This document shows, piece after piece, positions 22,749 through 36,268 of a stretch of 36,268 nt of DNA (positions are counted from its first letter, which is position 1; each line of letters begins with the position of its first letter). This stretch comes from a virus. Both the position numbers and the translations under genes were made by a program. The notes beneath the pieces were generated by a model. That model saw nothing but the letters and a program-made list of their open reading frames with translations. It was not told the origin of the DNA and did not search any database. The stretch is from the IMG/VR virus record IMGVR_UViG_3300036860_000486, positions 1 through 36,268 of that record. One strand, given 5' to 3'.

Positions 22749-23657
22749 TTAGGGCTTTTTCCTATGAATTTTCTGGAGGGCATCGAGGGCGACCTCCTCC
22801 TGGAGCTCCGTGTAATGAATCAGCATCGTCGTGGGCCGGCGCCAGGCGCCGAGCCTCATGATCAGGTTCATCGGTGTCCCCTCACCGGCCAGCCGCGCCA
22901 CGAAGGTGCGCCGCGTGTCGTGGAAGGAACAGGCCGGATCGATCCCCGCCGCCTTCACCGCCTTCTTGAACCAGTAACAGACGGCCGACTTCGACTTGAG
23001 GAAGAAGATCGGGCTGTCCGGCTTCCCGGCCCTCCCCATCGCGTCGAGCGCCTCATCGGCGAGGGGAATCCAATGGTTCTTGCGCGTCTTCATGATCCGG
23101 GCCGGGATGTCGATCACGGGGATCCGCTTCCCTCCCACCACCCGGGCTCCGACCATACTCCAGAGGAGCTTCCGGATCGTTCCCTGGCGCAGGCCGGTGG
23201 CGATGGCGAAGCGGATCGCTCGGGAGAGCCATCGGGGACAGCACCGGACGAGCCGCTGTTCCTCCTGGAGGGTGAGGGGCACGTATTTCTTTTGGACCAC
23301 CTCCTCCCGCGGTTCCCAGGCGGCGGTCGGGTCGCCATCGATCCATCCGTGGGTCTTGGCCCAGCGGAGGAACTGGCGGAGGTAGGCCCGCTCCTGGTTC
23401 ATGATCGAGGCTGAGATGCCCCCCTTCTTCCGGCTCGCCCTCCTGGCCTCGTGGGCCTCCACCTCGAGTATCTGGAGATCCCCGACCGCCTTGGCACCGA
23501 AGGACTCTTTCCAGGCGCGCACGAATCGGGCGACGTTGTCCTGGACGCCCTCCGACCAGCGGCCGGAGGACGACTTTTTACGGAACCAGTCGTCCACAGC
23601 CTGGAGGAAGAGTGGCGACGTTGACGGCCTCTCTATCTTTTGAGCGGGTAAAGACAT
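22749..23657 (-). CDS. int: tyrosine-recombinase integrase
   Basis: This 302-aa protein starts at the ATG at 23657, with AAAGGA 7 bases upstream; a longer GTG start is unlikely. An N-terminal SAM-like core-binding domain spans residues about 15-105, with the catalytic domain after 125. Visible catalytic residues are Arg157 in ATGLRQGT, Lys193 (TRKNHW), His246 and Arg249 in HDTRR, and Tyr282 in MLIHYTEL. The usual LGH box reads LGAW, so the second His is Ala271 or moved to Trp272. It integrates the phage at attB and so makes the phage temperate. The DnaA-like gene is directly upstream. Confidence 0.9.
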   Translation of the reverse strand: MSLPAQKIERPSTSPLFLQAVDDWFRKKSSSGRWSEGVQDNVARFVRAWKESFGAKAVGDLQILEVEAHEARRASRKKGGISASIMNQERAYLRQFLRWAKTHGWIDGDPTAAWEPREEVVQKKYVPLTLQEEQRLVRCCPRWLSRAIRFAIATGLRQGTIRKLLWSMVGARVVGGKRIPVIDIPARIMKTRKNHWIPLADEALDAMGRAGKPDSPIFFLKSKSAVCYWFKKAVKAAGIDPACSFHDTRRTFVARLAGEGTPMNLIMRLGAWRRPTTMLIHYTELQEEVALDALQKIHRKKP

Positions 23658-23689: not shown

Positions 23690-24031
23690 TTACAGCCCAA
23701 GGGAATCCTTGGTCGACTGTCTCATTTCAAGCGCTCGGCGGATCTGGGATCGGATAAGATCCAGCTCTTGCTTGAACACGACGCGCTGCTGTTCAAGGCC
23801 CGCGACGTAGAGCTTCGCGCGGCTGACGGCCGCGCTATCCCGGCCTAAAAACATCCCGATTTCCCGTTGGCTGAGCTGTTGCTTGTACGACTCCGTGAGG
23901 AGGCAGAGCGCGATCTTCCGGACGTGCGAAATCCGCTTTTCTCGGCCCTTCCCCATCAGCGCGGCAATGGAAACTTCGAACGCGGCCCCGATCACATCAG
24001 CGACGATCCACATTGTACGCGGCTGGGCCAT
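23690..24031 (-). CDS. DnaA domain-IV-like HTH protein
   Basis: This 113-aa protein starts at 24031, where AAAGGAG is 7 bases upstream. Residues about 34-78 match the DNA-binding domain IV of the replication initiator DnaA. They include the basic R-KIALCLLTE helix, LSQREIGMFLGRD and a signature LGRDSAAVSRA in place of GGRDHTTV. It has no AAA+ domain, so it cannot act as an initiator ATPase. A basic helical tail follows. It may bind DnaA-box-like sites to regulate replication or the integrase operon, which it heads. The match is by eye and the binding site is unknown. Confidence 0.65.
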   Translation of the reverse strand: MAQPRTMWIVADVIGAAFEVSIAALMGKGREKRISHVRKIALCLLTESYKQQLSQREIGMFLGRDSAAVSRAKLYVAGLEQQRVVFKQELDLIRSQIRRALEMRQSTKDSLGL

Positions 24032-24063
24032 CCCTAACTCCTTTAGGCTTGAAGACGATCCTG

Positions 24064-24093
24064 AGTTTATCCAAACCGATCGCACGAAGTCAA
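24064..24093 (-). promoter_or_regulatory. sigma70-like promoter for the HTH-integrase operon
   Basis: On the minus strand a -35 TTGACT (24093-24088) and a -10 TAAACT (24069-24064) are separated by 18 bases. RNA would start about 20-30 bases before the ATG at 24031. Confidence 0.55.
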
Positions 24094-24171
24094 CACGCCG
24101 CCATCGTCAACATGGCATTGCAAAGTATGATTTATGGTTAGCTATCCATTTGACACCGCGCTTGTTAATAT

Positions 24172-24309
24172 GACTTCCGCGTAAACTTTCAACAAACTCC
24201 GCAGGAATGAGCTATTTTTGGGTCGACTCCGTAAGACGCTTTGGTTTCGTTGGTTGGTTGGACTTCCGCACGAGTTACCGTTGGTCAATCTGGACTCATG
24301 CGTTTCCGC
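24172..24309. repeat. five spaced copies of GACTTCCGC-like word
   Basis: GACTTCCGC occurs at 24172 and 24261. AACTCCGC is at 24195, GACTCCGT at 24225 and GTTTCCGC at 24302. Steps are 23, 30, 36 and 41 bases. They may be integrase arm sites, operators or iterons. Confidence 0.35.
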
Positions 24310-24399
24310 AAGTCGCTGAGGTTACGGTACCTGCCACGGAAAAATGGCCTGGAATCGCGCGATTCCGGCCCTGCCCTTACTATGATTCTAGCTAGCGCT

Positions 24400-24430
24400 C
24401 TAGAAGATGAGATGGCTTCATCATCTCTAG
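24400..24430. repeat. imperfect hairpin in control region
   Basis: CTAGAAGATGA (24400-24410) pairs with TCATCTCTAG (24421-24430) with one bulged base around a 10-base loop. No T-run follows on either strand. It could be an att-like or operator element. Confidence 0.4.
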
Positions 24431-24521
24431 TTCCATCATCCGTCGCGCGTTTTCTTCCCGCTCTTCATCGCTGGTCCTCCTAGGGCGGATGGCGCGCGGA
24501 GCGAAAAAACGCTGGAACGGG

Positions 24522-24550
24522 TTGCAACTGATCTGAAATGTTGGTATGTT
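24522..24550 (+). promoter_or_regulatory. promoter for the lyase-like gene
   Basis: TTGCAA (24522-24527) and TATGTT (24545-24550) are 17 bases apart, which is good sigma70-like spacing. The start would be about 40 bases before the ATG at 24598. Confidence 0.5.
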
Positions 24551-24597
24551 TGTCCCCGCCGAGAGAGAAACCGAGCGTTCTCGATCCAGAGGTGAAG

Positions 24598-25806
24598 ATG
24601 AAACGGTTCCTGATTCTGTTCCTGCTCCTCCTCCTCGGCCTGTCCCCATCGCTTGACGCCCAGACCCCCAGTAAGGGAATCTGGCTCAGCCGCGAGGAAA
24701 TCGCAGCGCTTCCGGTCACGGGCACCGCCTGGAGCGCCATGAAGGCGGCCGCCGATTCCGCCTGGGGGACGCCGAAGCTCAGCGACCAGAACGACCCCGA
24801 CAACGTGCTGTGTCTCGCCGGCGCGTTCGTCTACGCACGCACGGGTGACGCAAGCTATAGGACGAAAGTCATCAACCAGGTCCTCCGGATCCCCGGCAGC
24901 GAGGACGGAGGCGAGACCCTGGCTCTCGGCCGCGAGCTCGCCGCCTACGTGATCGCTGCGGATCTCGTCGGGCTCCCCGCCGACAAGGAACCAGGCTTCA
25001 AGGCGTGGCTCAGCGGCGTGCGGACGAAGACCCTTTCCGGTAAGACGCTCATTTCCACAAGTGAGCACAAGCAAAACAATTGGGGAGTCATCTGCCGATA
25101 CTCACGGATCGTATGCGCGGTTTACCTGGACGACGCAGCCGACCTCGCTCGCTGCGCGAAGATCGAGCGCGGATGGCTCGGGGACCATGTCGCCTGGAAC
25201 TTCAGCCAGGACGACTTCGGGGACGATCTTTCCTGGCAGAGCGACCCCGCCCACCCGGTTGGTATAAACCCCAAGGGCGCGCTGATCCAGGGGCACAACG
25301 TCGATGGCGTGCTCCCCGACGAGGAGCGCCGCGCCGGCAGCTTCGTCTGGCCTGCGCCGAAGACCAACTACAGTTGGACGGGGCTCGAAGGCGCGCTGTG
25401 CTCGGCCTGGGTGCTTTCCCGCTTCGGCTACGCGGATATCTTCAACGTCCAGGACAAGGCCCTCCTGCGTGCCTATACCTGGCTCCATCAGGTGAACAAC
25501 TACCCCGCCGAGGGGAACGATCTGGTGCAAATCTGGATCGTCAATGCGGTCTACGGCACTAATTTTCCCACGAAGTCTCCCGCGCCACTCAGCCGGGCCT
25601 TCGGCTGGACGGATTGGACGCATAGCCGGCCGCTCACGCCCGATGTCCCGAAGGACTTTGCGGCCACCTTTGAGTTCCATTACCGCGCGGATACGAAAGA
25701 CTGGAGCAGCAATAGGTTGAGTAACGACACCTCGAAGCCGGGCATTGGCTCAACGCCATCAACAGCGCTGGCAAACTGGCTTCAGGTTAATGCCGGGGAG
25801 CCCTGA
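24598..25806 (+). CDS. secreted alginate-lyase-like polysaccharide lyase
   Basis: This 402-aa protein starts at 24598 with GAGGTG upstream. A signal peptide spans residues 1-21 (basic KR, Leu-rich core, cut near LDA-Q). The rest matches the alpha/alpha-toroid alginate-lyase superfamily: helical repeats, the HKQNNWG core (Asn160, Asn161), and DLSWQSDPAHPVGINPKG with an H-NVDGVLPDEERR loop (His233). The tail GWTDWTHS is also family-like. It would cleave uronic-acid polysaccharide by beta-elimination outside the cytoplasm. It has its own promoter, a signal peptide absent from virion enzymes, and sits beside the integrase, so it is probably a lysogenic conversion gene. A virion depolymerase is less likely. 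Confidence 0.65.
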   Translation: MKRFLILFLLLLLGLSPSLDAQTPSKGIWLSREEIAALPVTGTAWSAMKAAADSAWGTPKLSDQNDPDNVLCLAGAFVYARTGDASYRTKVINQVLRIPGSEDGGETLALGRELAAYVIAADLVGLPADKEPGFKAWLSGVRTKTLSGKTLISTSEHKQNNWGVICRYSRIVCAVYLDDAADLARCAKIERGWLGDHVAWNFSQDDFGDDLSWQSDPAHPVGINPKGALIQGHNVDGVLPDEERRAGSFVWPAPKTNYSWTGLEGALCSAWVLSRFGYADIFNVQDKALLRAYTWLHQVNNYPAEGNDLVQIWIVNAVYGTNFPTKSPAPLSRAFGWTDWTHSRPLTPDVPKDFAATFEFHYRADTKDWSSNRLSNDTSKPGIGSTPSTALANWLQVNAGEP

Positions 25807-28436: not shown

Positions 28437-28544
28437 GTGGCTCCAGTTCCTCCTGACTCGCCGGGCGCCCAGCGGGCAGCCGTGCTCCTCTTTGCGTTCG
28501 TGGTGCTGGCCTTTGGGCTGATCGTGTGGATGTGCTTTCGATGA
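28437..28544 (+). CDS. 35-aa single-pass membrane peptide
   Basis: GTG 28437 follows TTGAACACA directly. The 35 residues are short Pro-rich, then one strongly hydrophobic helix (AVLLFAFVVLAFGLIVW), then CFR and a stop that overlaps the next ATG (ATGA). The clean membrane helix and coupling on the downstream side support it. Confidence 0.45.
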   Translation: MAPVPPDSPGAQRAAVLLFAFVVLAFGLIVWMCFR

Positions 28545-28996
28545 CCTGGGAGCGCGTGACCAAGTTTGACCGGCGGGCGGTAGCGCTCGCTGACCGTCAC
28601 TACAACCGGCGGAAGGTCGGGTCGCCCCAGTTCATGCCGCCTGGGGAAACGGTGGTCCTCCTCCTCCAGGACGGCCGAGCCGCGTTCGGCTGGTGGAGAC
28701 CGCACCCGCGCTCAGGGCTGAAGGCCATGAACGGCCTGGACGGATGGACCTGCTCCATCTTCCGGAATGAGTCAGCCCGCCGCTCGAGCGAGTTAATCCT
28801 CGAGGCCGAGTTCGCCCTGCGGGAGGCCACTTGCGGCCCGGACGGGCTCCTGACCTACGTCTGGGACAAGAAGGTCCAGTCCAGGAACCCGGGTTATTGC
28901 TTCAAGTGTGCCGGCTACAGGGTCCGTGGCCGGAGCGCTGACGGGAAGAAGACCCTCCTCTCGAAGCCCTTCGCGCTTCTGGGGAGGGCGAGTTGA
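28541..28996 (+). CDS. conserved phage protein of the ADxHYxRRxxGSPQF type
   Basis: This 151-aa protein starts at ATG 28541 overlapping the peptide stop; an upstream in-frame ATG at 28526 is less likely. The segments ALADRHYNRRKVGSPQF, DGWTCSIFRNES and KVQSRNPGYCFKCAGY recur in a phage family of unknown function that I recall with the same order. The layout (central beta strands, E-A-x-x-A-helix, KxxxxNPGYCFK) is reminiscent of a GNAT-like fold, but no acetyl-CoA motif can be shown. Its TGA starts a TGAACAC box. Confidence 0.6.
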   Translation: MTWERVTKFDRRAVALADRHYNRRKVGSPQFMPPGETVVLLLQDGRAAFGWWRPHPRSGLKAMNGLDGWTCSIFRNESARRSSELILEAEFALREATCGPDGLLTYVWDKKVQSRNPGYCFKCAGYRVRGRSADGKKTLLSKPFALLGRAS

Positions 28997-29820: not shown

Positions 29821-30057
29821 ATGTGCCACCACCCGCACGGCGACTGCCTGGAATGCCGCGCCACCAGCGCCCGTTACGCGGAGCTCCGGGCATGGGCCGA
29901 TGAGCGGGCGGCCGTCAACATCGCGCTGCGGACCAGGTACAACCGGCTGCGGAAGGCGGCGGAGGAAGCGCACCGTTACTTCCGAAACCGCCCGGGCAAC
30001 TGGGAATACCAGACGCTGCAGATGCTCGAGGCCGCGCTGGCGGAGGAGGGGGAGTGA
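29821..30057 (+). CDS. small His/Cys protein, unknown
   Basis: This 78-aa protein starts at ATG 29821, preceded directly by CTGAACAC. The start is chosen over the long upstream frame because MCHHPHGDCLEC gives a compact His/Cys knuckle right at the N-terminus. The rest is a charged helix. The next gene begins in its stop (GTGATGA). Confidence 0.5.
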   Translation: MCHHPHGDCLECRATSARYAELRAWADERAAVNIALRTRYNRLRKAAEEAHRYFRNRPGNWEYQTLQMLEAALAEEGE

Positions 30058-30275
30058 TGAGCGACCGACCTCCTCCGGAGGTCCCTGACTGGACCTGGCC
30101 TCCCAGGGAACCACCTTGCGCTCGCTGCGTTCGGTTATGCAGGGCGGTGGAAGAGGCGAAGGCGAGATGCTTGGAAGCTCTTTTTTCGGACATCCGGGAA
30201 AACACAAGAGCAGCCCTGGAAATCCTCAAGGCCGCGCTGGCGGAGGATCGAACGGCCCGGGGAGGTCTTCAGTGA
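30057..30275 (+). CDS. small CxxC helical protein, unknown
   Basis: This 72-aa protein starts at ATG 30057 (or GTG 30054). It has PCARCVRLC near residue 20, then one long helix. It ends in GTGA overlap with the next gene. It resembles neighbouring small Cys-rich peptides in size only. Confidence 0.45.
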   Translation: MSDRPPPEVPDWTWPPREPPCARCVRLCRAVEEAKARCLEALFSDIRENTRAALEILKAALAEDRTARGGLQ

Positions 30276-30568
30276 GTGAGCCGCTGACCCTGGAGGAGCT
30301 GCGCGAGCTGGAGCAGTTCTGGGCGAAGGAAAACGAGGGGCCTGGGGAGATTGCTCCGTCCCGGACCCTGCGCGCCGTGCGGGAGCTTCTATCTATCCGG
30401 GAGGGGAGGCCGATGAGGATCGGGCCGCTGACGCCAGACGAAATGGCGGCGCTCAAGAAGGCGTGGGAGGAGCCGGGCGAGGTGATGCGGATCTCGCCGG
30501 AGATCATCCACCAGGAGAACGAGCAGCGAACAGCGGCGGAAATCCGGCAACGGACTGAACAGCACTGA
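30272..30568 (+). CDS. small acidic helical protein, unknown
   Basis: This 98-aa protein starts at GTG (GTGA overlap). Two similar helical segments (LTLEELRELEQFWAKE; LTPDEMAALKKAWEEP) look like an internal duplication of a short helix-pair unit. It has no Cys. The end encodes a TGAACAGCACTGA stretch that overlaps the repeated box. Confidence 0.45.
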   Translation: MSEPLTLEELRELEQFWAKENEGPGEIAPSRTLRAVRELLSIREGRPMRIGPLTPDEMAALKKAWEEPGEVMRISPEIIHQENEQRTAAEIRQRTEQH

Positions 30569-30576
30569 GAGAAAGT

Positions 30577-30593
30577 CGACTCCGTTGAACACA
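30577..30593. repeat. 17-bp word shared with 32142-32158 (inverted)
   Basis: CGACTCCGTTGAACACA at 30577-30593 occurs as its exact reverse complement at 32142-32158, inside the last codons of the sigma factor gene. The first part, GTCGACTCCGT, also occurs at 24222 in the control region. Confidence 0.5.
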
Positions 30594-30605
30594 CGCGCAC
30601 GAGCC

Positions 30606-31067
30606 ATGACTCTCACCGAAAGGTTCCTCAGCCACGTCGACGGGGCTCCGGGCTTCGGGCCAGAGGGCAACTGCTGGCGGTGGACGGCACAGACCCATCG
30701 CGGATACGGCCGCTTTCAGCTCGACGGTCGTCCCATGATGGCACACCGCGCAAGTTACCTACTCTTTCGGGGGCCGATCCCGAAGGGACTGGAGGCGCGG
30801 CACACCTGCTTGAATCGGCTCTGTGTGAACCCCGACCATATCGAGCCCGGGACCAAGTTCGACAACGCGGCAGACGGGCTGAAGGCCGGGAGGACTGCGC
30901 GGGGCCGGCGGCTGCCGCAAGCGGTCTTGACTGAGGCCAAGGTCCAAGCGATTCGGAGACGCTACGCGGCCGGCGGGGTTTCCCAGGGCGCGCTCGCCCG
31001 GGAGTACGGAGTGTGCCAGGCCACGATAGGTCTGGTGTTGCGGTGGAAGACATGGACGCACTGTTGA
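30606..31067 (+). CDS. HNH endonuclease with C-terminal HTH
   Basis: This 153-aa protein starts at ATG 30606; a longer TTG start at 30585 is possible. Residues 23-50 carry the NCWRWTAQTHRGYGRF and AHRASYLLFRG strand-helix of HNH proteins. ARHTCLNRLCVNPDHIE supplies the motif, with His66 and the Asn76/His79 pair and Cys68/Cys73 as a structural zinc site. Residues about 110-147 form an HTH (VSQGALAREYGVCQATIG). This is a homing-type or packaging-associated nuclease. It is free-standing, with no intron seen. It could also assist terminase, as in some HNH phages. Confidence 0.8.
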   Translation: MTLTERFLSHVDGAPGFGPEGNCWRWTAQTHRGYGRFQLDGRPMMAHRASYLLFRGPIPKGLEARHTCLNRLCVNPDHIEPGTKFDNAADGLKAGRTARGRRLPQAVLTEAKVQAIRRRYAAGGVSQGALAREYGVCQATIGLVLRWKTWTHC

Positions 31068-31092
31068 ACAGCCTGAGAGTGTAGTCGAATCG

Positions 31093-31440
31093 GTGGAGAA
31101 GAGGCGAAGAGAGGATCTTGAATGGGCGGCCCGCTACGCACGCGAGAAATGGGACCAGGTGAGAACCGGATCCGCCACGGAGGCGCTTCTGGCGGCCTCG
31201 CTCGAGGCGGCGGTTCCGCTCCGCTGCCTGGAGCTGAGGCACCTGGGTTTCGAGGCGCGAAAACGCATAGCGCAGGAGTGCTTCCCCACCCTGTTGGAGC
31301 ACGGAGACGATGCCATGTTCAAGTCGGTGCGCCGCGGGGACAGCGCGAGGGCGTTCTATGCACTGGTCACGATCCTCGCGGTCCTCGCCTTCGCGCCGGG
31401 CGGGGTAAAGGCCCTCGGGATGCACTTCGAATGTCGGTGA
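31093..31440 (+). CDS. small protein with membrane segment, unknown
   Basis: This 115-aa protein starts at GTG 31093, after the AGTCGAATCG end of the repeated box and with no clear ribosome site. Its first 90 residues are charged helices. Residues about 91-108 are hydrophobic (YALVTILAVLAFAPGG), possibly one membrane span. The end overlaps the next gene by 10 bases. Confidence 0.45.
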   Translation: MEKRRREDLEWAARYAREKWDQVRTGSATEALLAASLEAAVPLRCLELRHLGFEARKRIAQECFPTLLEHGDDAMFKSVRRGDSARAFYALVTILAVLAFAPGGVKALGMHFECR

Positions 31441-31634
31441 GGGTATTCAACCTCGCAACGGGTGAGGAAAGAATCTACGACTGGACGCTGACCCCGGTCC
31501 AGGCGGTCAGGAACGCCTGGCTTCAGACAGTCCGGGGCGACTTCAACACCTGGGACTATGAGAACCGCACCCTACTGCCGATGAGAGTCACCGGAAGGAC
31601 GGTGTCCTGCGGAGATTGGGTGGCGCTCCTGTGA
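31431..31634 (+). CDS. small conserved phage-type protein (GDFNTWDYE)
   Basis: This 67-aa protein starts at ATG 31431. The run RVFNLATGEE, QAVRNAWLQ and GDFNTWDYENR, and the ending TVSCGDWVALL, resembles small proteins found in various phages and mobile elements, of unknown function, as far as I recall. Its stop overlaps the sigma factor start by 4 bases (GTGA), so translation is coupled to it. Confidence 0.55.
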   Translation: MSVRVFNLATGEERIYDWTLTPVQAVRNAWLQTVRGDFNTWDYENRTLLPMRVTGRTVSCGDWVALL

Positions 31635-32167
31635 AGGTAGAGAACGAGCACTTGGATCTCTTGCGAATGGAATCCGCCATGAGAACCGGCCGTTGGATCT
31701 CCTTCGAGGACGCATTCGGAGCTGGTGCCGTCGGGCTTCTTGTCGCAGCCAAGCATTACGATCCTGATTGCGGTTTCCCGTTCAATGGCTACGCCAGGAA
31801 ACACATCAGGGGACGCATCATCAACGAGGCCAGGTTTCTTACCTGGAAGTACCACCGCGTCGGATCCCATGGGATACGCAAGTTCCGGGACCGGCCCGAG
31901 CGGCGGAGCCTCGCGAAGTGGAAGCGCATGGGCAAGCCGGACCGGGCCTATTCGGAAATCGAGAGAAGAGAGCTTTGTGAATACCTGCTCTCCCTTCTGG
32001 ATCTGCCGCGAAGCCGGGGGGTAATGCGCCTCCATTTCCTCGAGGGCTTGACGCTGGGGGAGATCGGCCGGCGATTGGGATGCACCGAGTCCAACGTCTG
32101 TGTGATCGTCAGGAATGCCGTTCGAAAGATTCGGCAGGCACTGTGTTCAACGGAGTCGGCCACATGA
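31631..32167 (+). CDS. phage-encoded sigma-70 family factor
   Basis: This 178-aa protein starts at GTG (GTGA overlap). Residues about 24-67 are region 2: FEDAFGAGAVGLLVAAKHYDP, then FPFNGYARKHIRGRI, the classic -10-binding/core-binding helices. Residues about 128-170 are region 4: VMRLHFLEGLTLGEIGRRLG then ESNVCVIVRNAVRKIRQ, the -35-binding HTH. It lacks the region 1 and long region 3 of housekeeping sigmas, like small sporulation, flagellar or stress sigmas. It closes the accessory operon, about 0.8 kb before the promoters that lead into packaging genes, so it may direct host polymerase to phage late genes. Anti-sigma partners were not seen. Confidence 0.85.
   Translation: MKVENEHLDLLRMESAMRTGRWISFEDAFGAGAVGLLVAAKHYDPDCGFPFNGYARKHIRGRIINEARFLTWKYHRVGSHGIRKFRDRPERRSLAKWKRMGKPDRAYSEIERRELCEYLLSLLDLPRSRGVMRLHFLEGLTLGEIGRRLGCTESNVCVIVRNAVRKIRQALCSTESAT
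32142..32158. repeat. inverted copy of the 17-bp word at 30577
   Basis: This is the reverse complement of CGACTCCGTTGAACACA, read on the minus strand, and is within the sigma factor's C-terminal codons. The minus strand continues with GTG, as at other box-linked starts, but no gene follows. Confidence 0.45.
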
Positions 32168-32175
32168 GACGGGTG

Positions 32176-32379
32176 TTAGAGAGTCCGCTCCGCCACCTCG
32201 ATGGCGTAAGCCAGACGGGCCTTGCGCTCGATGGCTTCATGCCAGGCGGCTTCCTGGAACTGGGCAGAAAGACGGCCAGGCTTTGGGCGCATTTTTACGA
32301 TACGGCTTTCAAGGTCGGGAAGGACGGCTTTCGCGGCCTTCACAAGCTGCGTGAGATTCATCTTGTCGAGAACGTCCAT
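32176..32379 (-). CDS. small helical protein, unknown
   Basis: This 67-aa protein starts at 32379 with GAAGAGGT upstream on the minus strand. It is helical and Ala/Lys-rich, with no Cys. It is the last of four small minus-strand genes that read away from the late promoter. Function unknown. Confidence 0.5.
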   Translation of the reverse strand: MDVLDKMNLTQLVKAAKAVLPDLESRIVKMRPKPGRLSAQFQEAAWHEAIERKARLAYAIEVAERTL

Positions 32380-32382
32380 CGT

Positions 32383-32556
32383 CTACCTCTTCGCCTTGCG
32401 GCGCTTCTTCTTCTGGCGGGCGCGCCACACCTTGACCCTGGCACCGACGTAGCAGGACTCGCAGAGCCCGCGGGCCAGGTGGCGGCGCTCGGTGCGGGCG
32501 CAGCGCCGGCAGCGGTCGAAGTCCCTGGCCCAACGGGTGAGTTTGGGCGGGGCCAT
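32383..32556 (-). CDS. small Cys4-type basic protein
   Basis: This 57-aa minus-strand frame begins MAPPKLTRW. It carries CRRC (residues 16-19) and CESC (residues 32-35), a good zinc-finger spacing, and ends in a very basic tail (KKKRRKAKR). It is 1 base from the next upstream small gene and 3 bases before the next downstream. It may be a DNA- or RNA-binding regulator. Confidence 0.55.
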   Translation of the reverse strand: MAPPKLTRWARDFDRCRRCARTERRHLARGLCESCYVGARVKVWRARQKKKRRKAKR

Positions 32557-32664
32557 CTACTCGGCCTCGGCAGGGGCCGTCTCGCAGCCCGGGCAATAGG
32601 GCTCGCCGGTGTGCCAAGTGGCCTTGGAAGCCTGGTTCCTTTCGTTGGGGTTGGGCGGGGCCAT
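32557..32664 (-). CDS. 35-aa CPGC peptide
   Basis: This minus-strand frame of 35 residues begins MAPPNPNERN and has CPGC near residue 24, then an acidic end. It shares the MAPP opening with the next gene, so one may be a duplicated start. It is tightly packed between neighbours. Modest confidence as it is very short. Confidence 0.4.
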   Translation of the reverse strand: MAPPNPNERNQASKATWHTGEPYCPGCETAPAEAE

Positions 32665-32895
32665 TCAGCGGGCCTTCCGGTCGCGGATGAACTGAGCGAT
32701 AGCCTCCCGCCGGCTGCCGGCCTGCACCGGGACGCCACCGTCGCCAGGCTCCGTGACGGCGATGACCGGACGGGTCATACGGCCGCCGGCGATGCCCGGG
32801 CGGTCAGGCGCGGTGATGGTGATGTGGCCGACAGGGATTCTGTCAGAGGACGGGGCGGCATCGGCGGTGAGGATGTGCACGTAGTAGGTCTTCAT
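32665..32895 (-). CDS. small beta-rich protein, unknown
   Basis: This 76-aa protein starts at 32895 (MKTYYVHI), and a longer frame to 32994 would run through the promoter. Two beta-like halves (YYVHILTAD; VGHITITAP) are followed by a C-terminal helix (SRREAIAQFIRDRKA). It is the first gene read leftward from the operator. A regulatory role is possible from position, but no HTH was seen. Confidence 0.5.
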   Translation of the reverse strand: MKTYYVHILTADAAPSSDRIPVGHITITAPDRPGIAGGRMTRPVIAVTEPGDGGVPVQAGSRREAIAQFIRDRKAR

Positions 32896-32939
32896 GGCGT
32901 TTTCTCGGTCGCCGGCTCCATGCCAGCGATCTACAAGGA

Positions 32940-32967
32940 ATGATACCATGGTATCTTGATTCGGCAA
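32940..32967 (-). promoter_or_regulatory. leftward promoter over the palindrome
   Basis: On the minus strand a -35 TTGCCG (32967-32962) and a -10 TATCAT (32945-32940) are 16 bases apart. The -10 and spacer lie on the palindrome at 32942-32955. Confidence 0.5.
32942..32955. promoter_or_regulatory. perfect 14-bp palindrome (operator candidate)
   Basis: GATACCATGGTATC is an exact palindrome between the divergent promoters. It covers the leftward -10 and spacer and abuts the rightward -35. A dimeric repressor bound here could shut both promoters. Confidence 0.6.
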
Positions 32968-32984
32968 GGGGAATCCGGTAACGT
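32956..32984 (+). promoter_or_regulatory. rightward promoter into packaging genes
   Basis: TTGATT (32956-32961) and TAACGT (32979-32984) are separated by 17 bases. It faces the small ORFs at 33120, the large terminase and then the structural genes. Confidence 0.5.
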
Positions 32985-33020
32985 CGGACAACAACAGGTG
33001 CTAGAGGAGTAAGCCCAACC

Positions 33021-33095
33021 GGAAGCCCTGGCCCGTAACTTATCCAACGGCTTTTTTCCCAAACTCAATGCCTTTCTGTAGCGGCCAGGGCTTCC
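33021..33095. repeat. 13-bp perfect inverted repeat in late leader
   Basis: GGAAGCCCTGGCC (33021-33033) is mirrored exactly at 33083-33095 around a 49-base loop, in the untranslated leader before 33120. It resembles tRNA ends but has no T-arm. It may be an RNA structure, small RNA or packaging site. Confidence 0.5.
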
Positions 33096-33119
33096 AACCT
33101 TGAAGAAGAGGAGGAGCGA

Positions 33120-33209
33120 ATGAAGAAGAGAACCAAGCCGCCCCCCGGGAAGGACGGCCGGATCCGCCGGAAGGACAGCCACGGCCGGGACTACCCACCA
33201 AAGGGATGA
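33120..33209 (+). CDS. 29-aa basic peptide
   Basis: ATG 33120 follows GAGGAGGAGCGA, a strong ribosome site. The 29 residues are Lys/Arg/Gly/Pro-rich (MKKRTKPPPGKDGRIRRKDS...). Its stop overlaps the next ATG (ATGA). It may be a leader peptide coupled to the next gene. Confidence 0.5.
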   Translation: MKKRTKPPPGKDGRIRRKDSHGRDYPPKG

Positions 33210-33538
33210 AGAAACGCCGGGCCCGCCGGGCCGAAAAGGTCGCCAGGACCTCCCGTGAGGTAGAGCGCCTCCGCGAACGCCAGCTCGCCGCGGTGATGGC
33301 TCCGCCGGCCGGCACCCCGGAGGCGCTCCGGGCCCTGGTGGACATCCCGACCTGGAGGAAGGGGCTGGTGGTCCACGACGCCATCGCGGTCGCCGTCGTC
33401 AAGGTGCTCCTGGATGCCTATGAAGCCACGGTCCGGGAGCTCGAGGAGGTGAAGGGATCGTCCTCGTTACTTCTGCCGCCCGCCGGGAACGGCTCCTACG
33501 GGAGTACCTCTGGTACCGGGGGGATCTCCGCCACCTGA
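33206..33538 (+). CDS. small ORF upstream of terminase (possible small terminase)
   Basis: This 110-aa protein starts at ATGA overlap with the leader peptide. The basic N-terminus (MKKRRARRAEKV) and helices (residues about 15-85) could suit a small packaging subunit, but no HTH is clear. Its last 30 residues are Ser/Gly/Leu low-complexity and run in another frame over the terminase N-terminus, so the true end, or a frameshift into the terminase, is open. Confidence 0.5.
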   Translation: MKKRRARRAEKVARTSREVERLRERQLAAVMAPPAGTPEALRALVDIPTWRKGLVVHDAIAVAVVKVLLDAYEATVRELEEVKGSSSLLLPPAGNGSYGSTSGTGGISAT

Positions 33539-35013
33539 TCAGGGAGAAGCGCCCGCATGGGCAGCTCTCGCTCTACGACTGGATCCACGGCTGGAAGGCG
33601 GAGCACCCGGAGGATCCGGGCCCCCTCTGCATCACCACCCACCGGCGTTTTGGGAAGTCTCACCTGATGGGACTTCTTACGATCGAGCGGGCCATCCGCC
33701 GGCCGCATCAGGTGGTGAAAGTCGGATCGCCCTGGTTCAAACAGACCCGCGAGGTGTTCCGCCCCGTCTTGAATCGGATCCTGAAGGACTGCCCGGGCCC
33801 CCTCCGCCCCGAGCACGCCGGCTACACCTACACGTTCCAGAACCCCTACTGGGGCGAGCGGGGGGAAAGTACCATCACGCTCTGCGGCGTCAACACCGAC
33901 CGGGGCGACCGCCTCCGCGGAGGCGACCTGGACCTCGGCGTCCTGGACGAATGCCGGGACGTGAAGGACCAGCTCTACATCCAGGACGACATCCTGATGC
34001 CCATGTTCCTTGGGCGGGAAGAGCCCCTCTTGATCTACTGCACCACCATCCCCAAGACGCTCGCCCACGACTACACCGTGGAGATCCTTCCCGCCGCGCG
34101 CCGCGAAGGCCGGGCGAAGCTCTTCCGGGTGGCGAACCTCGAGCGGGATCCCCTGACGCCCCCCGACCCGGAGGAGAACCTCGATTGGACGGACAAGCAT
34201 GAGCACCTGGTCCTGAAGTCCATTTCAAAGAGCTCCTCCACCTGGAAACGGGAGTACCTCTGCCTGGAGGTGCCGGACCTCACCTCCCTGATCATCCCCG
34301 AGTTCCCGGAGGTGGAGGGGGAGGTAGTCTACCAGGGGGAGGACTACACCCCGGCCCACCGGGGGCGGCCGGAGGAGTACGAGGTCTACATGGGGGCGGA
34401 CCTCGGCTGGGAGGACTTCACCGCTTGTATCTGGGGATTTCACGATTTCGAGGAGGATTTGCTCGTTATCGAGGCCGAAACGGTGAAAAACCACACCACA
34501 CCGCGGGAAATCGCAAAGCTCATAAGAGAGACGGAGCAAAGGCTGTACCCGGGGCATTACTCTCAGCGGCGCATCGTGAGGTTTGCGGACGCCGAGCAAA
34601 TCACGCTGGCGGGCCTCACGCTCGACGAGCGAATCCCGATCCTGCCTCCTGCGAAGTGGGACCGGGATGAGGCGATCGCGAAGCTCAGGACCCGCTTCAG
34701 CGATCGGAAGGTGCGGATACACGCGCGGTGCAAGGAACTGATCTACCAGCTCAAGAACGGGATCTGGGACGATCGCCGGAAGGACTTCACCCGCTCCGCC
34801 ACCCTCGGCCACTGCGATGCGCTCTCCGCCCTGATCTACCTGAACCGCATGGGCAACTGGCGGAAGAATCCCCGCCTCCAGGAGCCGCGGAAGCCGGACA
34901 CCAAGTTCTACCCGCCATGGGTCGCCCCGCCGGAGAGCTCGCCCCGCACGGTGGTCCGGGAGAGGACGATCCGCCGGGAGCCCCGCCGCGGCGGGGAGAA
35001 CCCCTTCCGCTAG
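33457..35013 (+). CDS. terL: terminase large subunit (possible ATC start)
   Basis: This is the packaging ATPase-nuclease, about 518 aa from 33457. The frame is open from 33424, and Walker A (ITTHRRFGKS, 33640-33660 for HRRFGKS) lies before the first ATG (33667), so 33667 cannot be the start. No ATG, GTG or TTG occurs between 33424 and 33667. AGGAGG (33444-33449) is 7 bases before an ATC at 33457, the best start; CTG at 33535 overlapping the previous stop is the alternative. Walker B is LDLGVLDE (33928-33951). Nuclease Asp residues are at 34399 (GADLGWED), 34588 (RFADAEQ) and 34816 (HCDALSAL). The full domain set is present. Confidence 0.85.
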   Translation: MVLVTSAARRERLLREYLWYRGDLRHLIREKRPHGQLSLYDWIHGWKAEHPEDPGPLCITTHRRFGKSHLMGLLTIERAIRRPHQVVKVGSPWFKQTREVFRPVLNRILKDCPGPLRPEHAGYTYTFQNPYWGERGESTITLCGVNTDRGDRLRGGDLDLGVLDECRDVKDQLYIQDDILMPMFLGREEPLLIYCTTIPKTLAHDYTVEILPAARREGRAKLFRVANLERDPLTPPDPEENLDWTDKHEHLVLKSISKSSSTWKREYLCLEVPDLTSLIIPEFPEVEGEVVYQGEDYTPAHRGRPEEYEVYMGADLGWEDFTACIWGFHDFEEDLLVIEAETVKNHTTPREIAKLIRETEQRLYPGHYSQRRIVRFADAEQITLAGLTLDERIPILPPAKWDRDEAIAKLRTRFSDRKVRIHARCKELIYQLKNGIWDDRRKDFTRSATLGHCDALSALIYLNRMGNWRKNPRLQEPRKPDTKFYPPWVAPPESSPRTVVRERTIRREPRRGGENPFR

Positions 35014-35105: not shown

Positions 35106-36268
35106 ATGGCCACCGCCTCCGGCACCTATCAGCTCCCCACGGACAGGTATTGGGCCCTGGACGAGGGGAAGAAGGTGGCCTGTTACCTCGCCCGGAAGCG
35201 TGGGGAGTATTTCACCTTCCTGAACGGGTGCGGCCTCCAGAATAAGATCGCCCGGAACAACCGGTACTTCCACGGGGACTTCTCGCGCGCCGCGACGGCC
35301 CCGGGGGACATGGCGATCCGGCAGAACCAGGAGACGGGCAACGTCCACCTGGCGATGAACGAATTCCGGGCCCTGGTGAGCCAGCTCGCCATCCTCGCCA
35401 CCGAGAACCCTCCGGCCTGGGACACGCTCGCCCGGAACAGCTCCCACGAGGCCCTTCAGCAGACCATCCTTGGAAACGACATTCTCGACTACGAGATGGA
35501 CGGGCCGCACCACGTTGAGGAGAAGCTCCGTGATGCGGTGGAGGACGCGCTCATCTTCACCTCCGGCTACGTGTGGACCCGCTGGGATCGGCACTGCGGG
35601 GATGAGGTCGGGGCAGAGCTCTACGGGTTCCCGGAGTACGACGGGGACATCCGCCATTCGAATCCCAACTTCTATCAAGTCCTTTATCCCTGGGATCGGC
35701 CGTGGCGGCAAAAGCAATGGGTGTGCGTCTGGGACTACGAGAACATCTGGGATCTCATTGCGGTCAACCCCGAGAAGCGGGACGAGATCCTCCAGTCCTG
35801 GAAGAAGAGGGAGAGCTACGGCCCGGACGGCTTCCAGAAGATCGGGGCGGAGGCCCCCGACCCCGACACCGTTGAGGTGGGGTATTTCTATCACCTCCGG
35901 ACGCCCGCCCTGCCCTACGGCAGGAAGATCAAGTTCGTGGCAGAGTGCATCCTTGAGGACACGTACGAGAGACCGGGATCCGTGTGGGGCGGGGAGGAGA
36001 TGGACCAGGCCAGCGGCTACGGCCCGGGCGAGGACTATAACGAGCCTTCCAACACAGCGCTTGTGTGGTCGGACCTGGATCAGCCGGAGCCCGAAGGCTG
36101 GAACCTCATGCTCCCCGTCCACCGGGTCATCCCCGCGCGCTACCTCCTGACCTCCTTCGGCTACTCGATCGCCTTCGACCTCCAGGGGTTCCAGGAGGCG
36201 CTCAACGGGGAAATCTCGACCATCCTCAACAATCACAAGAACTTCGCCCAGCTCCGGATCTGGACCCA
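35106..36268 (+). CDS. portal protein, N-terminal part (continues at base 1)
   Basis: The ATG at 35106 has GAGAGGAGC 4 bases upstream. This part carries residues 1-387, and the frame runs over the window end into base 1 (the overlap is 36142-36268 = 1-127), giving 746 aa in total. Segments LAMNEFRALVSQLAILATENPPAW (about 80-105) and DALIFTSGYVWTRWD (about 145-160), followed by YQVLYPWDRPW, resemble the helical wing and clip of podovirus portals. It follows the terminase and precedes scaffold and capsid, the canonical order. Confidence 0.85.
   Translation, partial: MATASGTYQLPTDRYWALDEGKKVACYLARKRGEYFTFLNGCGLQNKIARNNRYFHGDFSRAATAPGDMAIRQNQETGNVHLAMNEFRALVSQLAILATENPPAWDTLARNSSHEALQQTILGNDILDYEMDGPHHVEEKLRDAVEDALIFTSGYVWTRWDRHCGDEVGAELYGFPEYDGDIRHSNPNFYQVLYPWDRPWRQKQWVCVWDYENIWDLIAVNPEKRDEILQSWKKRESYGPDGFQKIGAEAPDPDTVEVGYFYHLRTPALPYGRKIKFVAECILEDTYERPGSVWGGEEMDQASGYGPGEDYNEPSNTALVWSDLDQPEPEGWNLMLPVHRVIPARYLLTSFGYSIAFDLQGFQEALNGEISTILNNHKNFAQLRIWT
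36142..36268. repeat. 127-bp direct terminal repeat, right copy
   Basis: This is identical to bases 1-127. It shows the assembly closes into a circle and the unique length is 36,141 bp. Confidence 0.95.

Follow-up and report, generated by a model that had tools for sequence, protein, structure and literature searches.

A sigma factor gene and a divergent promoter pair before the late operon of a circular phage genome: a candidate late-gene switch

The most likely explanation of our observations, to which we assign a probability of about one half, is that this new phage turns on its late genes with a sigma factor by a logic already known: phiEco32-like in its scheme, Ltr-like in the position of the regulator. 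The sigma factor gene is the last gene of the early operon, the late operon starts after 32896, and two overlapping divergent extended -10 promoters are located there, where a protein bound to a palindrome would cover both -10 elements. The sigma gene, a small leftward operon and the late promoter lie near each other at 31631-33119. As an instance of sigma-switch logic, what the sequence supports is ordinary; the collections that were searched gave no close relatives of the phage. To our knowledge, few of the phage sigma factors that take over the host polymerase have been studied, most of them in lytic phages, and a small temperate phage whose early operon closes with a sigma gene, and which has one clear late control region, would offer a compact system for the study of sigma appropriation alongside the integration decision.

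Genome layout and the sigma factor gene

The window, that is the whole stretch of 36,268 nucleotides that was analysed, is filed as a virus record and has a G+C content of 65.5%. It carries an exact 127-bp repeat at both ends, and is therefore regarded as the whole of a circular phage genome, 36,141 bp in length. The labels early and late are used here on the basis of gene content and gene order. The rightward late run begins at 33120 and comprises terminase, portal, capsid and tail genes up to about 20.6 kb, the portal gene (35106-36268, plus strand) continuing across the circle joint to 1205. Next comes a block of leftward genes that includes one for a tyrosine recombinase (22749-23597; match to Phage_integrase at E 1.6e-16), which suggests a temperate phage, and the lifestyle is probably temperate. 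The early rightward block extends from 24.6 to 32.2 kb, with the sigma gene at its end.

A second divergent gap, at 24032-24597, has 51% G+C compared to 65% in the genome and is a candidate immunity or replication region; it contains a 16-bp perfect palindrome, GGAATCGCGCGATTCC, at 24351-24366, as well as an extended -10 promoter at 24522-24550. The first gene of the early block (24598-25806) encodes a secreted-looking protein with a weak match to PF05426 (alginate lyase; 26.7 with a cut-off of 22.2), a possible host-polysaccharide cargo, for which a plasmid search gave no match. Adjoining the integrase block, 23690-24031 encodes a 113-residue protein in which the C-terminal DNA-binding domain of DnaA was recognised. 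Among the early genes scanned, that at 28541-28996 gave the top PHROG match (E 8e-33), to phrog_24928, a family with no assigned function.

The sigma gene (31631-32167, plus strand) reads from a GTG start at 31631 to a TGA stop ending at 32167 and is the final gene of the rightward early operon; the GTG overlaps the stop of the preceding gene, which suggests translational coupling. The encoded protein has 178 residues and is basic (pI 10.0). Region 2 was recognised in residues 15-71 (Sigma70_r2, PF04542; E 4e-7, 30.2 bits against a curated cut-off of 24.0) and region 4 in residues 126-169 (Sigma70_r4, PF04545; E 4e-11, 42.8 bits against a curated cut-off of 24.1), and the NCBIfam model TIGR02937 scored 78.2 bits, with a cut-off of 42.9. 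Both domains above their curated cut-offs, together with the TIGR02937 score of 78 bits, argue that the product is a genuine member of the sigma-70 family, and the description given in the first-pass annotation, of a sigma factor with regions 2 and 4 that ends an operon at 32167, can be retained. Pfam gave no Sigma70_r3 match at E 0.1, and residues 72-125 between the two domains gave no Pfam match. FliA/WhiG is the closest named subfamily, and WhiG and FliA are also the closest solved structures by sequence, yet the score was 69.1 bits against a subfamily cut-off of 189.6; with region 3 missing as well, membership of the FliA/WhiG (sigma-28) group was rejected. The domain content, regions 2 and 4 only, fits an ECF sigma, but the ECF models scored under their cut-offs (Sigma70_r4_2, 23.8 vs 25.7; Sigma70_ECF, 15.1 vs 21.1), and the protein is neither FliA nor a proven ECF sigma. 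The PHROG family phrog_36, labelled 'transcriptional regulator', matches in region 4 only (E 4.7e-6), and an AlphaFold model computed without an alignment had a pLDDT of 42, which is too poor for use of the fold.

Four leftward genes (32895-32176, minus strand), with gaps of 0, 0 and 3 bp, separate the sigma gene from the intergenic region 32896-33119. The first (32665-32895), recognised by its codon score and zero-gap stacking with the next genes, encodes 76 residues of no family; it is followed by a 35-residue protein with one CxxC (32557-32664; ORF list and stacking), a 57-residue zinc-ribbon-like protein with two CxxC pairs and a weak HNH match to phrog_20467 (32383-32556), and a 67-residue protein whose gene is convergent with sigma (32176-32379; stacking). 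No repressor-like protein was found among the four by PHROG/Pfam-type family searches. Between the end of this operon and the sigma stop lie 8 bp, and no terminator-like site was found between these convergent units, so leftward transcripts may run antisense into the sigma gene. Two neighbouring leftward genes have a common N-terminal coding sequence (MAPP...; 32383-32675), which belongs to a 30-nt direct repeat at 77%; this likeness suggests a small duplication.

The control region before the late operon

No region other than 32896-33119 lies in front of the rightward run that starts at 33120 and takes in the terminase, portal and structural genes. The perfect 14-bp palindrome GATACCATGGTATC (32942-32955) is an exact match, located 775 bp past the sigma stop, in agreement with the distance of about 0.8 kb given earlier, and the divergent sigma70-like promoters described at the palindrome were also recovered by promoter scans. 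The leftward promoter (32940-32967, minus strand) is TTGCCG-16-TATCAT with a TGn extension (9/12; predicted start around 32933), and the rightward, late promoter (32930-32957, plus strand) is TCTACA-16-TATCTT, also with TGn (8/12; predicted start around 32964). In a sigma-70 scan of 30000-34000 the leftward promoter was the only match (0.3 expected), and the rightward one, which is under the threshold of that scan, becomes conspicuous only with the extended -10 included in the score. The two promoters overlap over 32930-32967, with their -10 elements 6 bp apart and the predicted starts 31 bp apart; because the same 38 bp are common to both, they cannot be occupied together. Each -10 element takes its TATC from one end of the palindrome.

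In dinucleotide shuffles of 32896-33119 (n = 4000), both promoters appeared at the observed level three times (p 0.00075), palindromes 14 bp or longer were present in 65 (p 0.016), and promoters and palindrome all together in none, these p-values being optimistic because the site had already been seen when the scoring, with its TG bonus, was fixed. The whole genome has seven perfect palindromes of at least 14 bp, two of them in the two divergent gaps, against 4.25 expected, which makes nothing special of the palindrome by itself; the shuffles speak more strongly for the promoter pair. The palindrome has a single copy in the genome. The 14-mer occurs in 75 other viral loci, mostly within ORFs and on unrelated contigs, and no kinship with this phage at the site was found in any of them.

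The statistically strongest local feature, which is missing from the first-pass annotation, is located in the predicted late leader. This is a 13-bp perfect inverted repeat with a 49-nt loop (GGAAGCCCTGGCC/GGCCAGGGCTTCC; 33021-33095, plus strand), identified by repeat scan, shuffles and folding, and the genome has no longer perfect inverted repeat at a spacing of at most 120 nt. The predicted hairpin has a dG of -32.8 (z -5.1), and an inverted repeat of that kind was found in one of 4000 shuffles of 32896-33119 (0.00025). No Rfam family matched it; it may be an RNA stability element, an antitermination element or a packaging site. A T-run in the leader (33052-33057) was considered as an intrinsic terminator and rejected, the local hairpin being no better than in shuffles.

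The rightward promoter leads into terminase and structural genes, as had been claimed. The first late ORF (33120-33209, plus strand) encodes 29 residues, is basic, has a good ribosome-binding site and shares an ATGA overlap with the second late gene (33206-33538, plus strand), whose 110-residue product belongs to no family and is a small terminase candidate by position only. The large terminase gene, TerL (33457/33478-35013, plus strand), was assigned by its PHROG terminase match (E 1.5e-17) and its frame. In 33440-33670 this frame has no ATG, GTG or TTG ahead of the Walker A motif (HRRFGKS); AGGAGG lies about 7 nt ahead of an ATC at 33457, which is the probable start, the alternative being coupling or a frameshift from the overlapping 110-residue gene.

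Promoter class, the candidate switch and competing readings

That the phage sigma uses these promoters, a possibility raised in the first-pass annotation, is not borne out by their class. Both are of the housekeeping extended -10 type, and a near-identical extended -10, TGGTATGTT, is present in the top promoter upstream of the early operon (24522-24550, plus strand; TTGCAA-17-TATGTT with TGn, from the extended -10 scan), which has TGGTATNTT in common with the late promoter. The leftward, the rightward and this early promoter, plus several sites within genes, are the best extended -10 matches in the genome. The word TGGTAT(C/G)(A/T)T is common to the early, leftward and late units and is near the housekeeping consensus, which argues against a sigma-specific late class if one polymerase form reads them all. 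By these elements the promoters appear to be of the ordinary host sigma-70 type. In a search for a two-box motif common to intergenic regions only ribosome-binding-site words exceeded shuffles, and no recurring phage motif emerged, an absence that is weak evidence, as the entire late operon might depend on a single late promoter. A sigma-28 consensus was rejected, there being no convincing match in front of the late genes. The sequence thus gives no tie between the sigma factor and any promoter, and the protein could act elsewhere or on the host.

For a late-gene sigma switch of known logic, the following course may be envisaged. Host RNA polymerase with its housekeeping sigma would read both promoters, one at a time, and the outcome would be either transcripts of the small leftward genes or leakage into the late operon. 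Once early transcription reaches the end of its operon, the phage sigma would accumulate, join the host core and raise late transcription from 32896-33119. Leftward transcription, on the opposite strand and toward the sigma gene, may damp sigma until the rightward direction wins, and the late-leader hairpin may act at a later step of control, through RNA stability or antitermination, or may mark a site for packaging. It would be a long shot to propose further that a region-3-less, sigma-28-like sigma flips one 38-bp site from leftward transcription, opposing sigma, to rightward late transcription, where the symmetric -10 pair would form one switch point and the structured leader a second gate.

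The same site could be a plain bidirectional or overlapping host promoter, in which the palindrome arises from two facing extended -10 elements and has no operator role, direction being set by strength and competition. The palindrome contains exactly TGGTATC of each extended -10, and bacteria commonly have divergent promoters with such symmetry (PMC12825309). Against it, the predicted starts are 31 bp apart, whereas promoters with a single shared -10 typically start 10, 18 or 23 bp apart, and the centre is perfectly symmetric, which a pair of promoters would not require. We consider this explanation possible but doubtful. The switch originally proposed, where the phage sigma reads 32930-32957 and a dimeric repressor on the palindrome picks left or right, draws on the overlap of the palindrome with both -10 elements and on the sigma gene 0.8 kb upstream. 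It is unlikely, as the -10 elements are housekeeping-like and common to the best early promoter, the palindrome (p 0.016 locally) is unremarkable genome-wide, and a repressor candidate was not found: no Cro, CI or ribbon-helix-helix protein was among the proteins scanned, where the clearest small DNA-binding protein is the DnaA-C-like one, 9 kb from the palindrome. Of the early-to-late switch in that annotation there remain a real sigma factor, its place at the end of the early operon and a divergent control region before the late operon, but not the use of the promoters by sigma nor the repressor, and to call this kind of switch uncharacterised was too strong; the locus looks like a new example of an already known timing of phage late genes.

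It is quite unlikely that the sigma factor reprogrammes the host and not the late genes, in the manner of sporulation-like phage sigmas, and that its siting is incidental. The protein is FliA/WhiG-like by best subfamily, no phage promoter class was found, and phage sigmas that lytic growth does not need and that act on host development exist (PMC9429907), but it lacks region 3, failed the FliA/WhiG cut-off (69 vs 189.6 bits) and is encoded where late regulators typically lie. Very unlikely is a packaging start (cos or pac) with the palindrome and/or the inverted repeat as terminase sites, a reading in line with the position directly before the terminase genes and with the inverted repeat as the strongest non-random feature (0.00025; z -5.1); the promoter pair is nevertheless better than chance, and the assembly of the record as a circle says nothing on genome ends. 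The late sigma switch of known logic is the interpretation that we prefer.

Relatives and known systems

Among named phages, homology of structural proteins across several genes was seen with Silvanigrella phage MWH-Nonnen-W8red 1 (CP017838.1) alone, which has terminase, portal, major capsid and tail homologues at 22-28% identity; its record contains no sigma region 4 protein and no homologue of the sigma factor. No related locus was found in viral contigs via sigma, terminase, portal, capsid or a two-sequence terminase alignment, in searches from which near-identical records may have been kept out, and a degenerate portal motif gave only chance matches in viral and bacterial genomes. The terminase DRD motif led to distant terminases (22-26% identity) in low-GC contigs among loci L013-L027, and a sigma region 4 protein was found in none of the seven records that were tested. 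The only sigma match in phage records was to MT837064 (L005), at 28%. MT837064.1 is named Bacteriophage sp. and has bacterial housekeeping-like genes and a sigma-H-like gene; with such genes on the contig, the match is probably not a phage sigma but comes from a bacterial contig filed as phage. The presence of a DnaA-C-like 113-residue protein and a sigma factor in one phage recalls GafA of gene transfer agents, which unites DnaA-like and sigma-like domains (PMC9638019).

Phage sigma factors are numerous, 686 having been classified in one database survey (PMC9429907). The layout described here differs from E. coli bidirectional promoters, in which a symmetric sequence is bound by polymerase in both orientations (PMC12825309), in having two -10 elements and not one that is shared; assignment to the shared -10 class was rejected, since the predicted starts are 31 bp and the -10 elements 6 bp apart, and the class needs 10, 18 or 23 bp. 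With the FliA/WhiG sigma-28 group the protein has in common its best subfamily match in regions 2 and 4 and the closest solved structures, and it differs in the lack of region 3 and of a sigma-28 promoter before the late genes. Compared to Ltr, RinA and ArpU, the late regulators of Gram-positive temperate phages (for the late-regulator literature see PMC13123087), the present protein is a sigma factor with region 2 besides region 4, and the phi13 Ltr site has direct repeats upstream of the promoter, none like which are present here.

Late transcription by a phage sigma with the host core is established for phiEco32 and 7-11, where motifs common to promoters reveal the sigma promoters; in phiEco32 these stand before the late cluster, upstream of gene 6, gene 7 being the terminase (PMC4331800). 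BLASTP of our sigma factor against phiEco32 gave E 0.8, and terminase and portal gave no match; with no homology detected and no repeated promoter motif found, kinship with phiEco32 or membership of its type of late sigma was rejected. The phage also differs from phiEco32 in its integrase and in the leftward operon between sigma and late genes. The likeness to phiEco32 (gp36) and Salmonella phage 7-11 consists in one late cluster of terminase, portal and capsid and in a sigma factor made before the late genes, and judged by gene order the locus, while standing outside the phiEco32 system, appears to resemble the known late sigma systems.
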